From the NCBI GenBank assembly GCA_020060385.1, contig JAGVAH010000066.1, forward strand, positions 1 through 38,146: a stretch of 38,146 nucleotides of DNA, read 5' to 3'. Below, piece by piece: positions 6,476-37,377 of the stretch. Under the pieces are notes generated by a model. It did not search any database and was not told where the DNA came from. It saw nothing but the letters and a program-made list of their open reading frames with translations. The position numbers and the translations under genes were made by a program. Position 1 is the stretch's first letter, and each line of letters opens with the position of its first letter. Source of the stretch: Syntrophobacterales bacterium (GTDB lineage Bacteria; Desulfobacterota; Desulfobaccia; Desulfobaccales; 0-14-0-80-60-11).

Positions 6476-6994
6476 ATGTTTATCCTGAACCACGTGAAAC
6501 CTGAGGAGGCCACCGGCAAAGTGGCGGAGGCCTATGGCGTGATTCCCCCGGAAATACCGGTGCCTGAGCCCTTGCAGATGATGAGCGCCAGCCCGGACCT
6601 GGCCTTTCTCCAAAGCAATATTATCCGCTATTTCCGGAGCCAGGAGAAGCTGGACCTGGGGTTGTTGGCCACCATCCGCTATCTGGTGGCCAGTGAATTT
6701 GATTATCCCTACTGCCGCAACTTCAACGCCGGCCTCTTGCAGCAGGCCGGGGGCATGTCCCCGGCGGACCTGGAAAGCATGACCGCCCATCCGGAAAAAG
6801 CCCCCCTGGAAGAATACCAAAAGGAGTTGGTGCTTTTTGTTTTAAAGGCCGTCAAGACTCCGGAGAAGGTGACCAAAGAGGACGTGGAGAAGCTGCGGCA
6901 ACTGGGTTGGAGCGACCAGAATATCTTTGACGCCACTTATCACGGCGCGTTCATGCGGACCATTAGCATTGTCCACAAGGCCTTTGTCAAATAG
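6476..6994 (+). CDS. AhpD-like / carboxymuconolactone decarboxylase-family protein
   Basis: This 172-residue cytosolic protein has the all-helical AhpD-like fold, seen in LLATIRYLVASEFDYPYCRNFNAGLL and the later LGWSDQNIFDATYHGAFMRTIS helix pair. AhpD peroxidase-reductases use a CxxC pair and a nearby His; here the region is YPYCRNFN, so only the second Cys remains and the His position is Asn. It is therefore probably not a standard AhpD thiol reductase. The ATG at 6476 has a strong AAGGAGGAG ribosome site. It stands alone after the TetR gene with its own promoter/operator, so it is likely induced when TetR releases. Substrate unknown. Confidence 0.85.
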   Translation: MFILNHVKPEEATGKVAEAYGVIPPEIPVPEPLQMMSASPDLAFLQSNIIRYFRSQEKLDLGLLATIRYLVASEFDYPYCRNFNAGLLQQAGGMSPADLESMTAHPEKAPLEEYQKELVLFVLKAVKTPEKVTKEDVEKLRQLGWSDQNIFDATYHGAFMRTISIVHKAFVK

Positions 6995-7060: not shown

Positions 7061-7182
7061 CTTCCCCTCCCCATGGGGGAGGGGGGTGGGGGGAGGGGGG
7101 CGACTTGGGCAATGAGCTATAATCAGACCCAAAGACGCCACCCCCACCCCGACCCTCCCCCCTCAAGGGGGAGGGGGAAAAG
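7061..7182. repeat. Inverted pair of G/C-run palindromes
   Basis: The left unit (about 7061-7103) is CTTCCCCTCCCCATGGGGGA followed by G-runs; the right unit (about 7138-7182) is CCACCCCCACCCCGACCCTC, then CCCCCTCAAGGGGGAGGGGG. They are near reverse complements of each other around a 35-bp AT-richer centre. The units resemble the interior of the MITE-like element at 5527-5635 but lack its TTGCCAAAAGTT ends. The pair separates the AhpD-like gene from the broken gene and could stop transcription from either side. Confidence 0.65.
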
Positions 7183-7224
7183 GCAGGGCAACTTATGCAT
7201 GATATTTTGGGGACGGCAGACTGG

Positions 7225-8130
7225 TTAGAGAGTTTGAAGAGAAATGAAGGAGGGAGTTGCAGCAAGTTCTTCTATGTCTATCGTATAATTAGATAATTTT
7301 GATACTTCCGCAACTTCATAGGCTTTAAATTCAGGGTCGCCGCTATAATGAAGAGGAATATTATTGGCAAACTCCCGGCAGAAAAAATTATGGTATTTCG
7401 CAGCCCACTCAAATTTAGCTCTTATACCTGGATCAGCTTTATAATCCGTTAATCCTCTAGTAATAGAACGCTTATGTCCTTCTAATATATCAAAGAAGAT
7501 ACCACCATCAGGGAAAGCATGGAATACCTCACTTAGATAGTTGAGGAATATTGCCCCATCCGCGTCGCGAAAAAGCGCCTTATAATAAGAAGAGAACTCT
7601 ATAAAATCTGGATTGAATTCTAGATGTCTCTTAATGAACTCAATAGCTGAAGAGTCTAGAGCAATGCGGGGTGGCCCACCACGTTTTTCAAGATTCACGG
7701 CCTTTAAGAGTGCATCTCCAAAGACTATATCTTTATCCATATAGTGACCACCATAGGCAATTCCTCCTCTGACAAGAAAACCTTCTACAGCAAGCCCGAC
7801 CTGAAATTACGAAAAGATGCCCATGACATCGTGCAACTCAGGCTCTCCATCTCTAATCATTGGTTTTTCCAAGGGTTATCCTATTACAATATTATCTGTG
7901 AAAACCTTGATATTAAATAAGAACGCTCTAACAGATATTTTTGAATGTTCCCGAATATTCTTATACGTTCTCGATAGGGCATGCCAAAGCTGCGTTAGAA
8001 AAGAATTCCCTTGCCCTATGTCAATCGCCCGCTGACTCAAACGCTCGTAGCCTAAGATGTCTGCGTAACAGACAAATGACGGAAGCATTTTGGGAGGACC
8101 TTTGGATCTCAAATATGGGTTCTTAACCAT
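7225..8130 (-). pseudogene. AT-rich gene of nucleotide-cyclase-like type, interrupted by two in-frame TAA codons
   Basis: One reading frame runs from ATG (8128-8130) to TAA (7225-7227), 301 codons, broken only by TAA at codon 85 (7876-7878) and codon 108 (7807-7809). Reading through gives continuous protein-like sequence: FVCYADILGYERLSQRA..., FTDNIVIG-stop-PLEKP, GIFS-stop-FQVGLAVEGFLV, then RGGIAYGGHY and DIVFGDALLKAVNLE...PRIAL. The pattern (YADILG near the start, (S/T)D.IVI, RGGI..G..Y, FG.AL..A..LE, PRI) is that of a widespread cytosolic family of unknown function that I believe has a cyclase-like fold. Both stops fall where Tyr would fit and are one base from TAT/TAC. Base composition is far more AT-rich than its neighbours. 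It lies 18 bp downstream of larC on the same strand. Most likely a decaying acquired gene. Confidence 0.75.
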
Positions 8131-16664: not shown

Positions 16665-17225
16665 TGTTTCTCCTGAAAGGTTGCGGCGAAAGGGGTTGAC
16701 AGGGGTTGATTAAACCCCGGAGACAGGCGAGTCTAAGATATTGATCAAAGGAGATAGTCAATATGGTTTCCCATAACAGAGTTTCTGCGGTTGGTCAATT
16801 GCCCCCGGCGCCAAAAACCGTGGCGGCGATATTTTAATAATAATTGTAATGCCCTTTCCCCCGGAAGGCAACTGCTGGGAAGTATTAATCCATCGGACCA
16901 ATAGGTTAAGGACTTAAAGGTTGTCCTGGGAGGTGGTTGCCCAGCCGATTCCCGGCGATTATCATCTTTAACCTGGACCTTCTGAATGATTACCCTGATT
17001 TTTAATAGTCAGGTAACCCCCCTCCCCAGTGATTTGCTGCTGCAACTCTTTAAAAGGAAACAGGGGGTAGCAGAGGAATGGTGCAGGGGTGGGAAAGGAA
17101 GAATGCCAATAATTTCACAGTTTTCCTTTTTAGCCAAGGTATGATTGGGGCTGCAAAAATACTTGGCCTTTCCGTTATTCATGATATATTATGCGGATAC
17201 AGCAGAGGAGCACGGAGGGAGAGAC
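16665..17225. other. Divergent control region between lon and the hopanoid genes
   Basis: No convincing gene is present. Near lon a GGGGTT-GATTA-AACCCC hairpin (16702-16718) would lie in the lon leader. Toward the hopanoid side a bulged hairpin pairs TTACCCTGA (16990-16998) with TCAGGTAA (17009-17016). A candidate shc promoter is listed separately. The AT-rich centre (about 16835-16860) is the most promoter-like part by composition, but I cannot assign clear boxes for lon. Confidence 0.5.
17163..17190 (+). promoter_or_regulatory. Candidate promoter of the squalene-hopene cyclase gene
   Basis: TTGGCC (17163-17168), a 16-bp spacer and TATATT (17185-17190) would start transcription near 17197, about 30 bp before the TTG start with the GGAGGG ribosome site. 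It lies inside the longest open frame, which argues against the upstream starts. The -35 box is imperfect. Confidence 0.35.
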
Positions 17226-19181
17226 TTGGGGGGGAAGTCCATTCCGGCGCGCCAGAGGATTGAGCCTCTGGCTGCCGTCAGTGCGGCGAGCCGGCTCCAG
17301 AAGGCAGTGGAGCGGGCCGCCGCCGCCATGATGAAACTCCAGCACCCGGAAGGCTACTGGTGGGCCGAGCTGGAATCCAACGTCACCATCACCGCCGAAT
17401 ATATCATGCTCCACCGTTTCCTGGGGCTGGACGATTCCAAGGTTCCCAGGCTGGCCGCAGATATCCTCTCCCGGCAGTTGCCCAACGGCGGCTGGTCCGT
17501 CTGGTACGGCGACGGCGGGGAACTCAGCGCCACGGTGGAAGCATACATGGCCTTGAAGATGGCGGGCCTGTCTCCTCATGACGAGCGCCTGGTGCGGGCC
17601 CGCCAGTTTATTCTGGCTAATGGAGGGCCCCTTAAGACCCGGGTCTTCACCCGAATCTTTCTGGCCCTTTTCGGCCAGGTAAGTTGGGACGGCATCCCCC
17701 TGCTGCCCGTGGAATTCGTCCTCCTGCCCCCCTGGTCGGGTCTCAGCATTTACGAGTTCTCCAGTTGGACCCGGGCCACCGTGGTGCCCCTGATGATCAT
17801 CATGGCCCACCGCCCGGTCTGCCCTTTGCCTCCGGAGCAGGGGGTGGCCGAACTTTTTGCCTCTCCTGACGAACCTTTCCAGAAGCACCGGGTGTCCTGG
17901 AAACCCCACGGCCCCCACCTGGAGAACGTCTTCGTCCTGGTGGACCGGCTGCTGAAGCTCTATTACCGCCTCCCCGTGCCCTGGCTGCGCAACCTGGCCC
18001 TGAAACGGGCGGAGAAATGGATTGTGGAGCGCCAGGAGGAGAGCGGCGATTGGGCCGGCATTCAACCGGCCATGCTCAACTCCATTCTGGCCTTGCACTG
18101 TCTGGGCTACCCCTTGGAGCACCAGGTCATGCGCCGGGGTCTCCAGGCCCTGGAGTTTTTTGAGCTTCACCACGGCGATCGCACCTGGCTCCAATCCTGC
18201 ATCTCCCCTGTCTGGGATACGGCCCTGGCGGTGCGGGCCCTGGCCGCGGCCGGCGTCTCCCCCGCACACCCCACCATGTCTCAGGCCACTTCCTGGCTCC
18301 TGTCCATGCAGATTTTCAAGCCCGGGGACTGGAGCATCAAATGCCCGGACCTGGCCCCCGGGGGCTGGGCCTTTGAGTTCGTCAACAACTGGTATCCGGA
18401 CGTGGACGACAGCTCCATGGTGCTGGTGGCCTTGAAGGAAGGATTGGCGGACCCGGAGGTCCACCAGGCCCAAATCCAGCGGGGCATCGACTGGTGTCTG
18501 GGGATGCAGTCGAAAAACGGCGGCTTCGGTTCCTTTGACAAGGACAATACCAAGGAATGGCTCAACGCCATCCCCTTCGGCGATCTGAAGGCCCTGGTGG
18601 ACCCGCCCACCGAGGATATCACCGGCCGCATCCTGGAGATGATGGGAGCCTTCGGCCACGGCCCGGAACATCCGGTCGCGGCCCGGGCATTGGAATTTAT
18701 CCGCCGCACCCAGCAGGCCGACGGCTCCTGGTGGGGCCGCTGGGGAGTCAGTTGCATCTATGGCACCTGGTCGGTGCTGGCGGGCCTGCAGGCCATCGGC
18801 GAAGACCTGCGCCAGCCTTACGTGCGCCGGGCCGTCTCCTGGCTCAAGGAGCACCAGAACCCCGACGGCGGCTGGGGCGAGTGCTGCTCCTGCTACCTGG
18901 ACAAGGAGATGGAGGGTTGCGGCCCCAGCACCGCGTCCCAGACCGGCTGGGGTTTGCTGGGTCTGATGGCCGCGGGCGAAGCCGCGTCCCCGGAAGTGAA
19001 GGCCGGGGTGGATTATCTCCTCAAGACCCAAACCCTCCAGGGCCGCTGGGAGGAGCCTTATTACACAGGCACCGGCTTCCCCGGCCACTTCATGATCCGC
19101 TACCACCTCTACCGGGACTGCTTCCCCCTGCAGGCCCTGGGACAATATCTGCAGACCCTGGCCAACCAGGAGAATGGCTAA
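17226..19181 (+). CDS. shc: Squalene-hopene cyclase
   Basis: This enzyme cyclises squalene to hopene/hopanol at the inner membrane, the first committed step of hopanoid synthesis. From the TTG at 17226 it is 651 residues, the usual family length. The catalytic acid motif is DVDDSS at about residues 392-397 (DVDDTA in the best-known enzyme). Multiple QW repeats are visible (QLPNGGWSVWYGDGG, QSKNGGFGSF, QQADGSWWGRWG, QNPDGGWGECC, LQGRWEEPYYTGTGFPG). TTG 17226 is chosen for its GGAGGG ribosome site at good spacing; in-frame alternatives are TTG 17145 and ATG 17181, both without one. The 3' end overlaps hpnA by 8 bp, so the two are coupled. Ser replacing Thr in DVDDT is conservative. Confidence 0.95.
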   Translation: MGGKSIPARQRIEPLAAVSAASRLQKAVERAAAAMMKLQHPEGYWWAELESNVTITAEYIMLHRFLGLDDSKVPRLAADILSRQLPNGGWSVWYGDGGELSATVEAYMALKMAGLSPHDERLVRARQFILANGGPLKTRVFTRIFLALFGQVSWDGIPLLPVEFVLLPPWSGLSIYEFSSWTRATVVPLMIIMAHRPVCPLPPEQGVAELFASPDEPFQKHRVSWKPHGPHLENVFVLVDRLLKLYYRLPVPWLRNLALKRAEKWIVERQEESGDWAGIQPAMLNSILALHCLGYPLEHQVMRRGLQALEFFELHHGDRTWLQSCISPVWDTALAVRALAAAGVSPAHPTMSQATSWLLSMQIFKPGDWSIKCPDLAPGGWAFEFVNNWYPDVDDSSMVLVALKEGLADPEVHQAQIQRGIDWCLGMQSKNGGFGSFDKDNTKEWLNAIPFGDLKALVDPPTEDITGRILEMMGAFGHGPEHPVAARALEFIRRTQQADGSWWGRWGVSCIYGTWSVLAGLQAIGEDLRQPYVRRAVSWLKEHQNPDGGWGECCSCYLDKEMEGCGPSTASQTGWGLLGLMAAGEAASPEVKAGVDYLLKTQTLQGRWEEPYYTGTGFPGHFMIRYHLYRDCFPLQALGQYLQTLANQENG

Positions 19182-20160
19182 GACTTTAGTAACCGGCGGC
19201 ACCGGCTTTGTGGGCCGGGCGGTGGTGACTGAACTGCTGGCCGCGGGCCGGGAGGTGCGGGTCCTGGCCCGCAACCCCGAACATCCGGCCCTGGCGGGGC
19301 TGGCCGTGGAAGTCGCAGAGGGGGATCTGCGGGATCCCGCCTCCCTGGAACAAGCTCTTAAGGGCTGTTCCCACCTCTTCCACGTGGCCGCGGACTACCG
19401 CCTCTGGGTGCCGGACCCGGAAGTGATGTACGCCATCAACGTGGAGGGAACCCGCCAGCTCCTCACCGCCGCGGCCATGGGTGGGCTGAAGCGGGTCGTT
19501 TATACCAGCACCGTGGGCGCTTTGGGCAATCCCGGGGATGGCACACCCGGCACCGAAGAGACCCCGGTGAGCCTCAAAGAGATGGTGGGGCATTACAAAC
19601 GCTCCAAGTTCCTGGCGGAGCAGACGGCCCTGGATTTCGCCCGAAAAGGCCTGCCCCTGGTGGTGGTCAATCCCAGCACCCCGGTGGGGCCCTGGGACTG
19701 GCGGCCCACGCCCACCGGGCAGATGCTGGTGGATTTTTTAAAGGGCCGCATGCCCGCGTATCTGGAGACCGGCCTCAACCTGGTGCATGTCCAGGACGTG
19801 GCCCGGGGGCATTTGCTGGCGGAGGCAAAGGGGAGGGTAGGGGAGAAGTACATCCTGGGCCATGAAAACCTGAGTCTCTCCCGCATCTTCCAGATGCTGG
19901 GGGAGATCGCCGGTCTGCCGGCCCCCAAGGTGAAACTCCCCTACTGGCCGGTGCTGGGCCTGGCCTATGTCAACGAATTTTGGGCCAGATATCTCAGCCG
20001 GGGCGCCCCCCGGATGTCGGTGACCGCGGTGCGGATGGCGAAAAAATTCATGTACTTTGACCATACAAAAGCAGTAAAATATCTGGGATGGACCCCGACT
20101 CCGGTGCGCCGGGCCCTGGAAGAGGCGGTGGAGTGGTTTAGGGAGCATAACTATATTTGA
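19174..20160 (+). CDS. hpnA: Hopanoid-associated sugar epimerase HpnA
   Basis: HpnA is an extended short-chain dehydrogenase/reductase associated with hopanoid gene clusters and thought to act on the sugar part of extended hopanoids; its exact reaction is not settled. The 328-residue protein has an NAD(P)-binding GGTGFVG motif at about 8-14 and the catalytic YKRSK (YxxxK) after the STVGALG strand. NPSTPVGPWDWRPTPTG, MYFDHTKAVKYLGWTPT and EEAVEWF are features I recognise from HpnA sequences. The ATG lies inside the end of the cyclase gene with AGGAG just upstream. The neighbours shc and hpnH support the assignment. Confidence 0.93.
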   Translation: MAKTLVTGGTGFVGRAVVTELLAAGREVRVLARNPEHPALAGLAVEVAEGDLRDPASLEQALKGCSHLFHVAADYRLWVPDPEVMYAINVEGTRQLLTAAAMGGLKRVVYTSTVGALGNPGDGTPGTEETPVSLKEMVGHYKRSKFLAEQTALDFARKGLPLVVVNPSTPVGPWDWRPTPTGQMLVDFLKGRMPAYLETGLNLVHVQDVARGHLLAEAKGRVGEKYILGHENLSLSRIFQMLGEIAGLPAPKVKLPYWPVLGLAYVNEFWARYLSRGAPRMSVTAVRMAKKFMYFDHTKAVKYLGWTPTPVRRALEEAVEWFREHNYI

Positions 20161-33832: not shown

Positions 33833-35182
33833 ATGGAATGGTGGCTGCGGATAAAAGAATTTTTTCAGCGGGGCCTCTGGCAGGATGCGGGGTGGAGCCC
33901 GGCAAGCCTCCATCTGCTGAAGGCCCTGCGCGTCCTGATCCTGGCCTGGGGCAGCCTCTTCCAAAGCCGCTCCCTGGTCCGGGCCTCGGCCCTGGCCTAT
34001 GCCACAGTCCTGGCCATCATTCCCCTCTTGGCCTTGCTCTTTGCCATCCTCAAGGGTTTGGGGATCCAGAGGGTGATCTCCGGGCATCTTCTGGAGCGCC
34101 TGGCTCCCGGCTCCCAGGAATTCGCCACCCAGATCTTCCAATATATTGAAAATACCCAGGTGACTTCCCTGGGAGTCTTCGGGGTGGTGGTCCTGCTCCT
34201 GGCCCTGGTGGTGGTGATGACCAATGTGGAGCGGGCCTTTAACGAGACCTGGAAGGTCTCCCAGACCCGGCCCTGGCGCCGCAAGCTCAGCGATTATCTG
34301 AGCATTTTTATGATCTTCCCCATCCTGATGGCCGGGGCCATTTCCTTTTCCACCGCCTTTATCGGGCACCCGGAGATCCGTCGCCTCCTCTCCGGCATTC
34401 TCCCCGCAACTTTTTATTCGGCCACCAGCGTCCTGGTGTCCCTGGGAGTCCTGTGGCTGGCCTTTACCTTTATTTACGTGGTCATGCCCAATACCCACGT
34501 GCGTTTAGGGTCCGCGCTCCTGGGGGGGATTGTCGGGGGCAGCATCTGGCAGGTGGCCCAATGGATTTTTGCCTGGTTCCAGGGCGCGGCCACTTATTAC
34601 AACGCCATTTATGGAGCCCTCTACCACCTGCTTTTTCTGGTGATCTGGATGTTCTGGTCTTGGCTTATCGTGCTCTTCGGCACCGAGGTGGCCTACGCCC
34701 ACCAGAACCTGGACCGTCTCAGCCGGGACTGGCAACGGCAGCCGCTGCCCCCCGAGCCGGTGGACGAATACCTGACCCTGGCCGGGCTGGCGGCCATCGG
34801 CGCGCGTTACTCCCAGCGGAAGACGCCGCCATTATCTCTGGAGGAATTGGCCAGGATTCTCCCCAGCAGCAACAATCTGGCGGCCCGGGTGGCCGGGCTG
34901 CTCCAGGACTGCCGCCTGATTATGCCCGTGGCTGCCCACGGCCCGGAAGATTCCCCCAGGTATGTCCCCAGTCTGCCCATGGACCAGATAAGCGTCAAGG
35001 AAGTATTGGACTGTCTGCGCCGGCTCCGGGGGGAGGTCACAGCCCAGGCCCTGGAAGAGGAGCCGGCACTGGCTGCGGGCCTGAAGGCCCTGGTGGCCAG
35101 CGCCCCGTTCCCGCCGTGGCAATCGCTCAACCTCCAAGAATTGGTGAACCAGTGGTTTAAAGGGGAAGGGCCAGGTTTATGA
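33833..35182 (+). CDS. YihY/BrkB-family inner-membrane protein
   Basis: This 449-residue protein has the YihY/BrkB core at about 35-300 with six transmembrane helices. The signature motifs are RASALAYATVLAIIPLLALLFA, VERAFNETWKV near the end of the second section, and SAIYGALYHLLFLV-like YYNAIYGALYHLLFLVIWMF, then LFGTEVAYAHQNL. The family was once annotated as ribonuclease BN, which is wrong. An extra ~150-residue cytosolic tail looks like a winged-helix-type domain (SLEELARILPSSNNLAARVAGLLQD). The true function of the family is unknown. It overlaps the next gene by ATGA (35179-35182). Confidence 0.92.
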   Translation: MEWWLRIKEFFQRGLWQDAGWSPASLHLLKALRVLILAWGSLFQSRSLVRASALAYATVLAIIPLLALLFAILKGLGIQRVISGHLLERLAPGSQEFATQIFQYIENTQVTSLGVFGVVVLLLALVVVMTNVERAFNETWKVSQTRPWRRKLSDYLSIFMIFPILMAGAISFSTAFIGHPEIRRLLSGILPATFYSATSVLVSLGVLWLAFTFIYVVMPNTHVRLGSALLGGIVGGSIWQVAQWIFAWFQGAATYYNAIYGALYHLLFLVIWMFWSWLIVLFGTEVAYAHQNLDRLSRDWQRQPLPPEPVDEYLTLAGLAAIGARYSQRKTPPLSLEELARILPSSNNLAARVAGLLQDCRLIMPVAAHGPEDSPRYVPSLPMDQISVKEVLDCLRRLRGEVTAQALEEEPALAAGLKALVASAPFPPWQSLNLQELVNQWFKGEGPGL

Positions 35183-37377
35183 AGAAGCGAGCTTTTTTCG
35201 GTGCCTCCTTGATTTTCTTATGGCTGGTGACCGGCGGACAGGCTCAATCAGGCGTTCCGGGTGAGAAGAAGTGGAACTTTACCACCGGGGGATATGTGGG
35301 CTTTTCTTCCCCGGCCATCGGCGCGGACGGGACTCTTTATCTGGGGTCCTATGATAAGAAGCTCTATGCGGTCAACCCCAATGGCACTCAGAAGTGGATC
35401 TTCACCACCGGCGGGGCCATCGAATCTTCTCCGGCCATTGGCGCCGACGGCACCATCTATGTGGGCTCCAGTGATAAAAAGCTCTATGCGGTCAAACCGG
35501 ACGGGACCCAGAAGTGGGCTTACACCACGGGAGGCCCGGTGGAATCCTCCCCGGCCCTGGCCACTGACGGCACCATTTATGTGGGAGCGGGTGACGGCAA
35601 GCTCTATGCCATCAATGCCGATGGCTCGTCCAAGTGGGCCTTTAACCCCGGGAGCAGTTTTTTTTCCTCCCCCGCGGTGGGCGCCAATGGCATTATCTAT
35701 GCCGGCGCCGATGATGGCAAACTCTACGCCCTGAACCCGGACGGCACCAAAAAATGGGCCTTTGCCACCGGCGGGGCGGTGGAATCATCCCCGGCCATTG
35801 GCCCTGGCGGCACCATCTATGTGGGTTCTTTTGACGGCAAGCTCTACGCGGTGAACCCTGACGGCAGCCAAAAGTGGGCCTTTAGTACGGGTGGGATAGT
35901 GATCTCTTCTCCGGCCGTTGATATAAACGGCACCATCTATGTGGGTTCGAGTGACGGCAAGCTCTATGCGGTGAACCCGGGCGGCAGCCAAAAGTGGGCC
36001 TTTACCACCACCTCGGGGATGGCCTCTTCCCCGGCCCTGGGCCTGGAGGGCACCATCTATGTGGGTTCAGGTGACGGTAATCTCTATGCGGTCAAGGGGG
36101 ACGGCACCCAGAAATGGGCCTTTGCCACTGGCGGGCCGGTGATCTCTTCCCCGGTGGTGGGCTACGGCGGTGTCATCTATGTAGGGTCAGGGGATCAAAA
36201 CCTCTATGCCGTTTATGGCGATTCCACGGAAGCGGCGAAATACCAGTGGCCCATGTTCCGCCATGATCAGAACCATAGTGGCAGATTTGCCAGCGTGGTC
36301 ACCATCTGGACTTTTGCCACCTCGGGCAAGGTGGTGTCTTCCCCGGCCCTGGCCCCCGACGGCACTATATATGTGGGATCCCATGATGCCAAACTCTACG
36401 CCCTCAATCCCAGCGGCAGCCAAAAGTGGGCCTTTTCCACCAAAGGGGCGGTGCAATCTTCCCCCGCAATCGGTGCTGACGGCACCATCTATGTGGGCGC
36501 AGATGACGGCAAGCTCTATGCGGTGAACCCAGACGGCAGCCAAAAGTGGGCCTTTGCTACGAATGGATCGGTTATCTCTTCCCCGGCCATTGGCGCCGAT
36601 GGCACTATCTATGTGGGTTCCGGGGATGGTCATTTATATGCGATCAATGGGGACGGCACTGAGAAGTGGGCCTTTAGCGTGGGGGGCTGGGTGAGTTTTT
36701 CTTCCCCGGCCATCGGCCGGGACGGCACCATCTATCTGGGGTCCTATAATCGGAATCTCTATGCCGTTAACCCGAACGGGACCTTCAAATGGGCCTTTAC
36801 CACGGGGGGTTGGGTGGCATCCTCCCCCAGCATCGGCCCCGACGGCACCATTTACGTGGGGTCCTATGATAAAAAGCTCTATGCCCTGAACCCCAGGAAC
36901 GGCAGCCAAAAGTGGGCCTTTTCCACGTACGCGCCGGTGGAATCTTCCCCGGCCATTGGTCCAGACGGCGCCATCTATGTGGGTTCGGACGACGGCACCC
37001 TCTATGCCATCAACCCGGACGGCACCCAAAAATGGGCCTTTAGCACCTGGTATGGTTATTACTCCTCTCCGGCCCTGGACGCGGGCGGCATCATCTATGC
37101 AGGTTCCAATGACGGCAAATTCTATGCAGTCAATGGGGATGGCACCCAGAGATGGGCCTTAACCACCGGCGGCCCGGTGCTGTCATCCCCGGCTGTGGGC
37201 CCGAACGGCACCATCTATGTGGGCTCGAATGATGGAAAACTCTATGCCATTGCCGGTTCCCAGGGATTGGCAGCATCCTTTTGGCCCATGTTTCATTATG
37301 ACCTGCAACATACTGGCAAGCTCAAGGGCTCTCCGGCAACGCCGTCGACAATTCTTCTCCTCCTCTTGCAGGATTAA
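35179..37377 (+). CDS. Exported PQQ-type beta-propeller repeat protein, two eight-blade propellers
   Basis: After a signal peptide (MKKRAFFGASLIFLWLVTGGQA), this 732-residue protein consists of 16 near-identical ~40-residue blades with the consensus WAF.TGG.V.SSPAIG.DG, TIYVGS.DGKLYAVNPDG.QK. After blade 8 and after blade 16 the sequence has a WPMFRHDQNHSGR-type motif (about residues 357 and 702), which looks like a closing element. It therefore most likely folds as two eight-blade propellers in the periplasm or on the surface. The match to the PQQ_2 family is in fold only; no quinone-binding residues or catalytic site are visible. Similarity is high at DNA level, so the array has expanded or been homogenised recently. 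It is coupled to the YihY gene. Confidence 0.9.
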   Translation: MKKRAFFGASLIFLWLVTGGQAQSGVPGEKKWNFTTGGYVGFSSPAIGADGTLYLGSYDKKLYAVNPNGTQKWIFTTGGAIESSPAIGADGTIYVGSSDKKLYAVKPDGTQKWAYTTGGPVESSPALATDGTIYVGAGDGKLYAINADGSSKWAFNPGSSFFSSPAVGANGIIYAGADDGKLYALNPDGTKKWAFATGGAVESSPAIGPGGTIYVGSFDGKLYAVNPDGSQKWAFSTGGIVISSPAVDINGTIYVGSSDGKLYAVNPGGSQKWAFTTTSGMASSPALGLEGTIYVGSGDGNLYAVKGDGTQKWAFATGGPVISSPVVGYGGVIYVGSGDQNLYAVYGDSTEAAKYQWPMFRHDQNHSGRFASVVTIWTFATSGKVVSSPALAPDGTIYVGSHDAKLYALNPSGSQKWAFSTKGAVQSSPAIGADGTIYVGADDGKLYAVNPDGSQKWAFATNGSVISSPAIGADGTIYVGSGDGHLYAINGDGTEKWAFSVGGWVSFSSPAIGRDGTIYLGSYNRNLYAVNPNGTFKWAFTTGGWVASSPSIGPDGTIYVGSYDKKLYALNPRNGSQKWAFSTYAPVESSPAIGPDGAIYVGSDDGTLYAINPDGTQKWAFSTWYGYYSSPALDAGGIIYAGSNDGKFYAVNGDGTQRWALTTGGPVLSSPAVGPNGTIYVGSNDGKLYAIAGSQGLAASFWPMFHYDLQHTGKLKGSPATPSTILLLLLQD

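Follow-up and report, generated by a model that had tools for sequence, protein, structure and literature searches.

The window analysed here is the entire contig 47 (38,146 nucleotides) of a 4.15-Mb Syntrophobacterales assembly comprising 175 contigs and 99.95% complete. At 7225-8130 on the minus strand it carries a broken foreign gene of the phrog_23933 family, with a predicted class III nucleotidyl cyclase-like fold. Read from 8130 to 7225, the gene translates into 301 residues followed by a terminal TAA, with no indel in the frame and exactly two internal stops, both TAA, at codon 85 (7876-7878, minus strand) and codon 108 (7807-7809, minus strand). Retranslation agrees in this with a preliminary description of the locus, which had reported a 301-codon frame, free of frameshifts and interrupted only by these two TAA codons. 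The former lies immediately 3' of a conserved FTDNIVIG stretch and the latter immediately 5' of the conserved F109-Q110 pair. They leave an N-terminal remnant ORF of 84 aa (7876-8130, minus strand), which is the product expected without read-through and holds the invariant D24 and D79, and a C-terminal remnant ORF of 171 aa that starts from an internal ATG at residue 131 (7225-7740, minus strand). The remaining five frames across the interval contain 15-29 stops each, and two or fewer stops in a random 301-codon frame at the same GC would occur with P ~8e-7; such a stop-poor frame therefore reflects a real coding history, and the coding periodicity is intact along with the frame. A hidden pair of frameshifts, considered for a one-residue gap near residue 150, was dropped, as the intact relative L004 has the same length there.

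The gene lies between two neighbours. Upstream is a nickel insertion protein of the LarC family (PF01969; 8149-9327, minus strand), the stop codon of which precedes the start of the broken gene by 18 bp. Given this short gap and the shared strand behind larC, the two genes are likely to be co-transcribed, the broken one probably being expressed from the larC transcript. The downstream neighbour is convergent (6476-6994, plus strand) and encodes a 172-aa protein with no Pfam match, which is kept at the same place in two congeneric genomes, G003 and G006. Bordering the insert is an intergenic repeat of about 150 bp (7062-7222), rich in palindromes and C/G runs, for which the genome yields 46 matches, with identities reaching 90%, and Rfam none. 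The same repeat is present in the opposite orientation at the empty site of G006.

The read-through protein matches the phrog_23933 profile with an E-value of 1.9e-24, residues 19-250 aligning to profile positions 7-221 of 240, and shares 20-37% identity with 57 fetched relatives. Both the profile match and the relatives span the two stops, which bears out the earlier proposal that the protein text on either side belongs to one family. The window protein had no match in Pfam, NCBIfam or PADLOC, and a direct sequence search of the PDB returned only marginal, chance-like matches. Relatives were found in 21 of 297 genomes of the phylum (the present genome counted), on plasmids, and at 49 loci in a species collection, in Chlorobiota, Pseudomonadota, Bacillota and others, with no conserved gene neighbour evident for the family. 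The alignments of the family (A1 and A2) also reveal a conserved C-terminal motif, KYxWxAxYHNxFC. Other broken members were observed, namely a fragmented copy on a Planococcus plasmid (L030, 2900-3593) and a copy in genome G229 (L020) with three different internal stops, TGA, TAG and TAA.

phrog_23933 is catalogued as a family of unknown function. A model built from 28 sequences (mean pLDDT 86.7, pTM 0.87) was compared with known structures using Foldseek, and nearly all PDB matches were class III nucleotidyl cyclases, with a probability of 1.00, a best E-value of 8.6e-5 and TM scores of 0.5-0.6 on target length for this predicted structure. In a profile search, the adenylate cyclase 1yk9 also came up, weakly (E 0.71). 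On the strength of the model, the intact family appears to have a divergent class III nucleotidyl cyclase fold. In common with class III cyclases (PF00211; 4ni2, 1ybu, 1yk9), it has the predicted fold, the [FY]xDILG and F[TS]D stretches with their invariant Asp, and conserved RGG and FGxAL regions. It differs from them in having extra C-terminal helices and no significant Pfam match, and in lacking the conserved Asn and Arg of the classical helix motif, the family reading GxALxxAYxxE where 1yk9 has GDAVNVASRME. D24 and D79 are invariant in both alignments and, if the motifs are taken to indicate equivalence to the metal-binding Asp, plausibly bind metal; working members of the family probably bind nucleotide and metal. 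The Pycsar cyclase PycC belongs to the same fold class, and one relative has a weak PADLOC match to it (E 0.018). Unlike in Pycsar systems, no effector adjoins the window gene, its neighbours being larC and the convergent 172-aa gene, and the window protein itself has no PADLOC match. Overall, phrog_23933 appears to be a widespread, uncharacterised family of predicted cyclase fold without the classical catalytic Asn and Arg, occurring in scattered phyla and on plasmids.

The composition of the gene sets it apart from its surroundings. Its GC content is 40%, and its GC3 is 0.35 against a mean of 0.78 for the 28 other genes of the window. It is single-copy, as a search of the genome for a second copy found none. 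It was not detected in six congeners, some of whose assemblies are incomplete, and went undetected in nearly all of the 99 relatives searched. These results uphold the view of the preliminary description that the gene is foreign and AT-rich. In G006 and G003 the two flanking genes lie side by side, separated by 432 bp and about 630 bp respectively, with no trace of the gene. Foreign composition is thus accompanied by absence at the same site in close relatives, and the gene is a recent foreign insertion. As to its source, tblastn gave no match to phage records, viral contigs likewise contained none, and the window copy has no well-supported sister in the tree that could point to a donor.

The preliminary description had placed both stops at positions where Tyr or another aromatic residue is expected. 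We examined the corresponding columns in an alignment of the read-through protein with the 57 fetched relatives, some of the figures being drawn from the 25 nearest. Column 85 holds Trp in 11 of the 25 nearest relatives, followed by Phe, His, Cys and Lys, and Tyr in none of the 57. Column 108 holds Glu in 11 of the 25, followed by Arg and others, with Tyr in one of the 25 and four of the 57. The aromatic residue that was expected here is residue 109, present as Phe one position after the stop. Scored against the 25 nearest relatives, Tyr receives -2.6 bits in column 85 and 0 bits in column 108; Trp and Glu respectively rank highest, and no residue does well in both columns; the genuine Tyr codons of the gene score +3 to +4.2 bits at conserved sites. 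Moreover, the two columns are among the more variable ones (rank 166 and 191 of 238). The comparison with homologues at codons 85 and 108 therefore upholds homology across both stops and does not bear out a Tyr at either, and by shifting the supposed Tyr site by one residue it removes the case for recoding. When a frame is open apart from two in-frame stops of one type, those stops argue only weakly for recoding.

Both stops cut the conserved core of the family. The window copy carries TAA at two sites where intact relatives have sense codons; no intact relative in the 57-sequence alignment stops at 85 or 108, and the fetched near relatives, in contrast to the window copy, are open across both. 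The 22 nearest relatives share 51 conserved columns; the window copy deviates at seven of these, the relatives themselves at 0-11 (median about 2). The end branch of the window copy measures 2.02, the next longest in the clade being 1.29. These departures and the long branch point to relaxed constraint, although sparse sampling could give both, and the intact L097 and L085 depart at conserved columns as often as the window copy or more. The invariant D24, D79, Q110, R121 and P154 are all retained. The lack of a frameshift together with these residues would be compatible with continued selection on the gene as well.

It had further been suggested that two changes to stop without any indel are less usual than ordinary decay. 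In this gene about 2.7% of substitutions create a stop. If indels are assumed to occur at 0.03-0.15 per substitution, nonsense mutations would account for both of the first two disabling changes in 25-3% of cases, and in about 15% of those both would be TAA. A pattern expected in some 3-25% of decaying copies does not stand out strongly. Finding two TAA codons and no frameshift is only slightly out of the ordinary, and the coincidence, itself mild, was picked out post hoc.

The remaining suggestions concern how the stops might be read or whether they are real. A host that suppresses or reassigns TAA is contradicted, because TAA closes 15 of the 28 intact genes in the window, more than any other stop, also ends the gene itself, and has no cognate tRNA among the 38 that passed the Rfam cut-off in the 175 contigs and were read by ARAGORN, none of which bears a TTA anticodon. 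The failure of any one residue to fit both columns tells against it as well. The same genome encodes a tRNA-SeC with anticodon TCA (L066, 1658-1755), which suggests selenoprotein use and is unrelated to the TAA codons. It might still be argued that the donor, rather than the present host, decodes TAA as a sense codon, for instance for Tyr, given that both internal stops are TAA and that the frame continues across them. With the Tyr scores given above, a terminal TAA shared with several of the nearest relatives, and only two TAA among 301 codons, we regard this as highly improbable. Furthermore, all bacterial stop reassignments known in 2021 concern UGA, and the same source warns that in-frame stops in pseudogenes give false reassignments (PMC8629427). 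Somewhat less remote, yet still very unlikely, is a functional gene in which read-through of two UAA codons yields a rare full-length protein, or in which two halves are translated separately, the second by re-initiation at the residue-131 ATG. A dN/dS below 1 is maintained in many bacterial genes that contain internal stops (PMC7918605), and the retained invariant residues and the 171-aa C-terminal ORF with its own ATG are compatible with such a scheme. The leaky stop, however, is TGA, and the listed recoding mechanisms concern TGA and TAG (PMC7918605), whereas here two successive TAA would have to be passed with no tRNA found for them. The two stops divide what is predicted to be a single domain, and the absence of stops at 85 and 108 from intact relatives weighs against either form.

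A further explanation, unlikely but the most credible of these rivals, is that the cell carries an intact gene and that one or both stops are consensus errors in a metagenome-assembled contig. Spurious internal stops in public genomes are known to arise from assembly error, a problem that grows as coverage falls (PMC11017572), and the family frame is otherwise intact. Against this, the 28 other genes of the contig are full-length with no internal stop in 10,463 codons, though they had been picked as open frames, and two random base errors per 301 codons would predict many more elsewhere. Nor would assembly error explain the excess of changes at conserved columns.

In our judgement, with a probability of roughly 0.87, the locus represents a single foreign accessory gene that this lineage acquired between larC and the convergent gene and that is at present in decay, a young pseudogene left by a failed horizontal transfer. 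Its foreign origin is supported by the GC3 contrast, its non-detection in the congeners and in nearly all of the 99 relatives, the empty sites in G003 and G006 and the occurrence of relatives on plasmids and in scattered phyla. That it is decaying is indicated by the stops in the conserved core, the changed conserved columns and the long end branch, broken relatives also being known, and that it is young by the intact frame and coding periodicity. The preliminary description had listed a young pseudogene among its options, and this option is supported. On this account, an accessory gene would have entered the site between larC and the convergent gene, and two point mutations would then have produced TAA at the poorly conserved positions 85 and 108. 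With the gene probably at the end of the larC transcript, translation would halt after 84 residues, presumably leaving the cell without a complete protein. Prokaryote pseudogenes include a disproportionately large share of failed horizontal transfers (PMC522871), and the window gene resembles these in its foreign composition, patchy distribution and disabling mutations; it differs from them in having so far only nonsense changes and no frameshift.

Two other observations were made in the window. A squalene-hopene cyclase gene occupies 17145-19181, and the 699-aa ORF that overlaps it in antisense (17175-19274) seems to be a side effect of high GC. Further along, 35179-37377 encodes a 732-aa protein with many repeated PQQ-type β-propeller units (DGTIYVGS.DGKLYAVN.DG.QKWAF).
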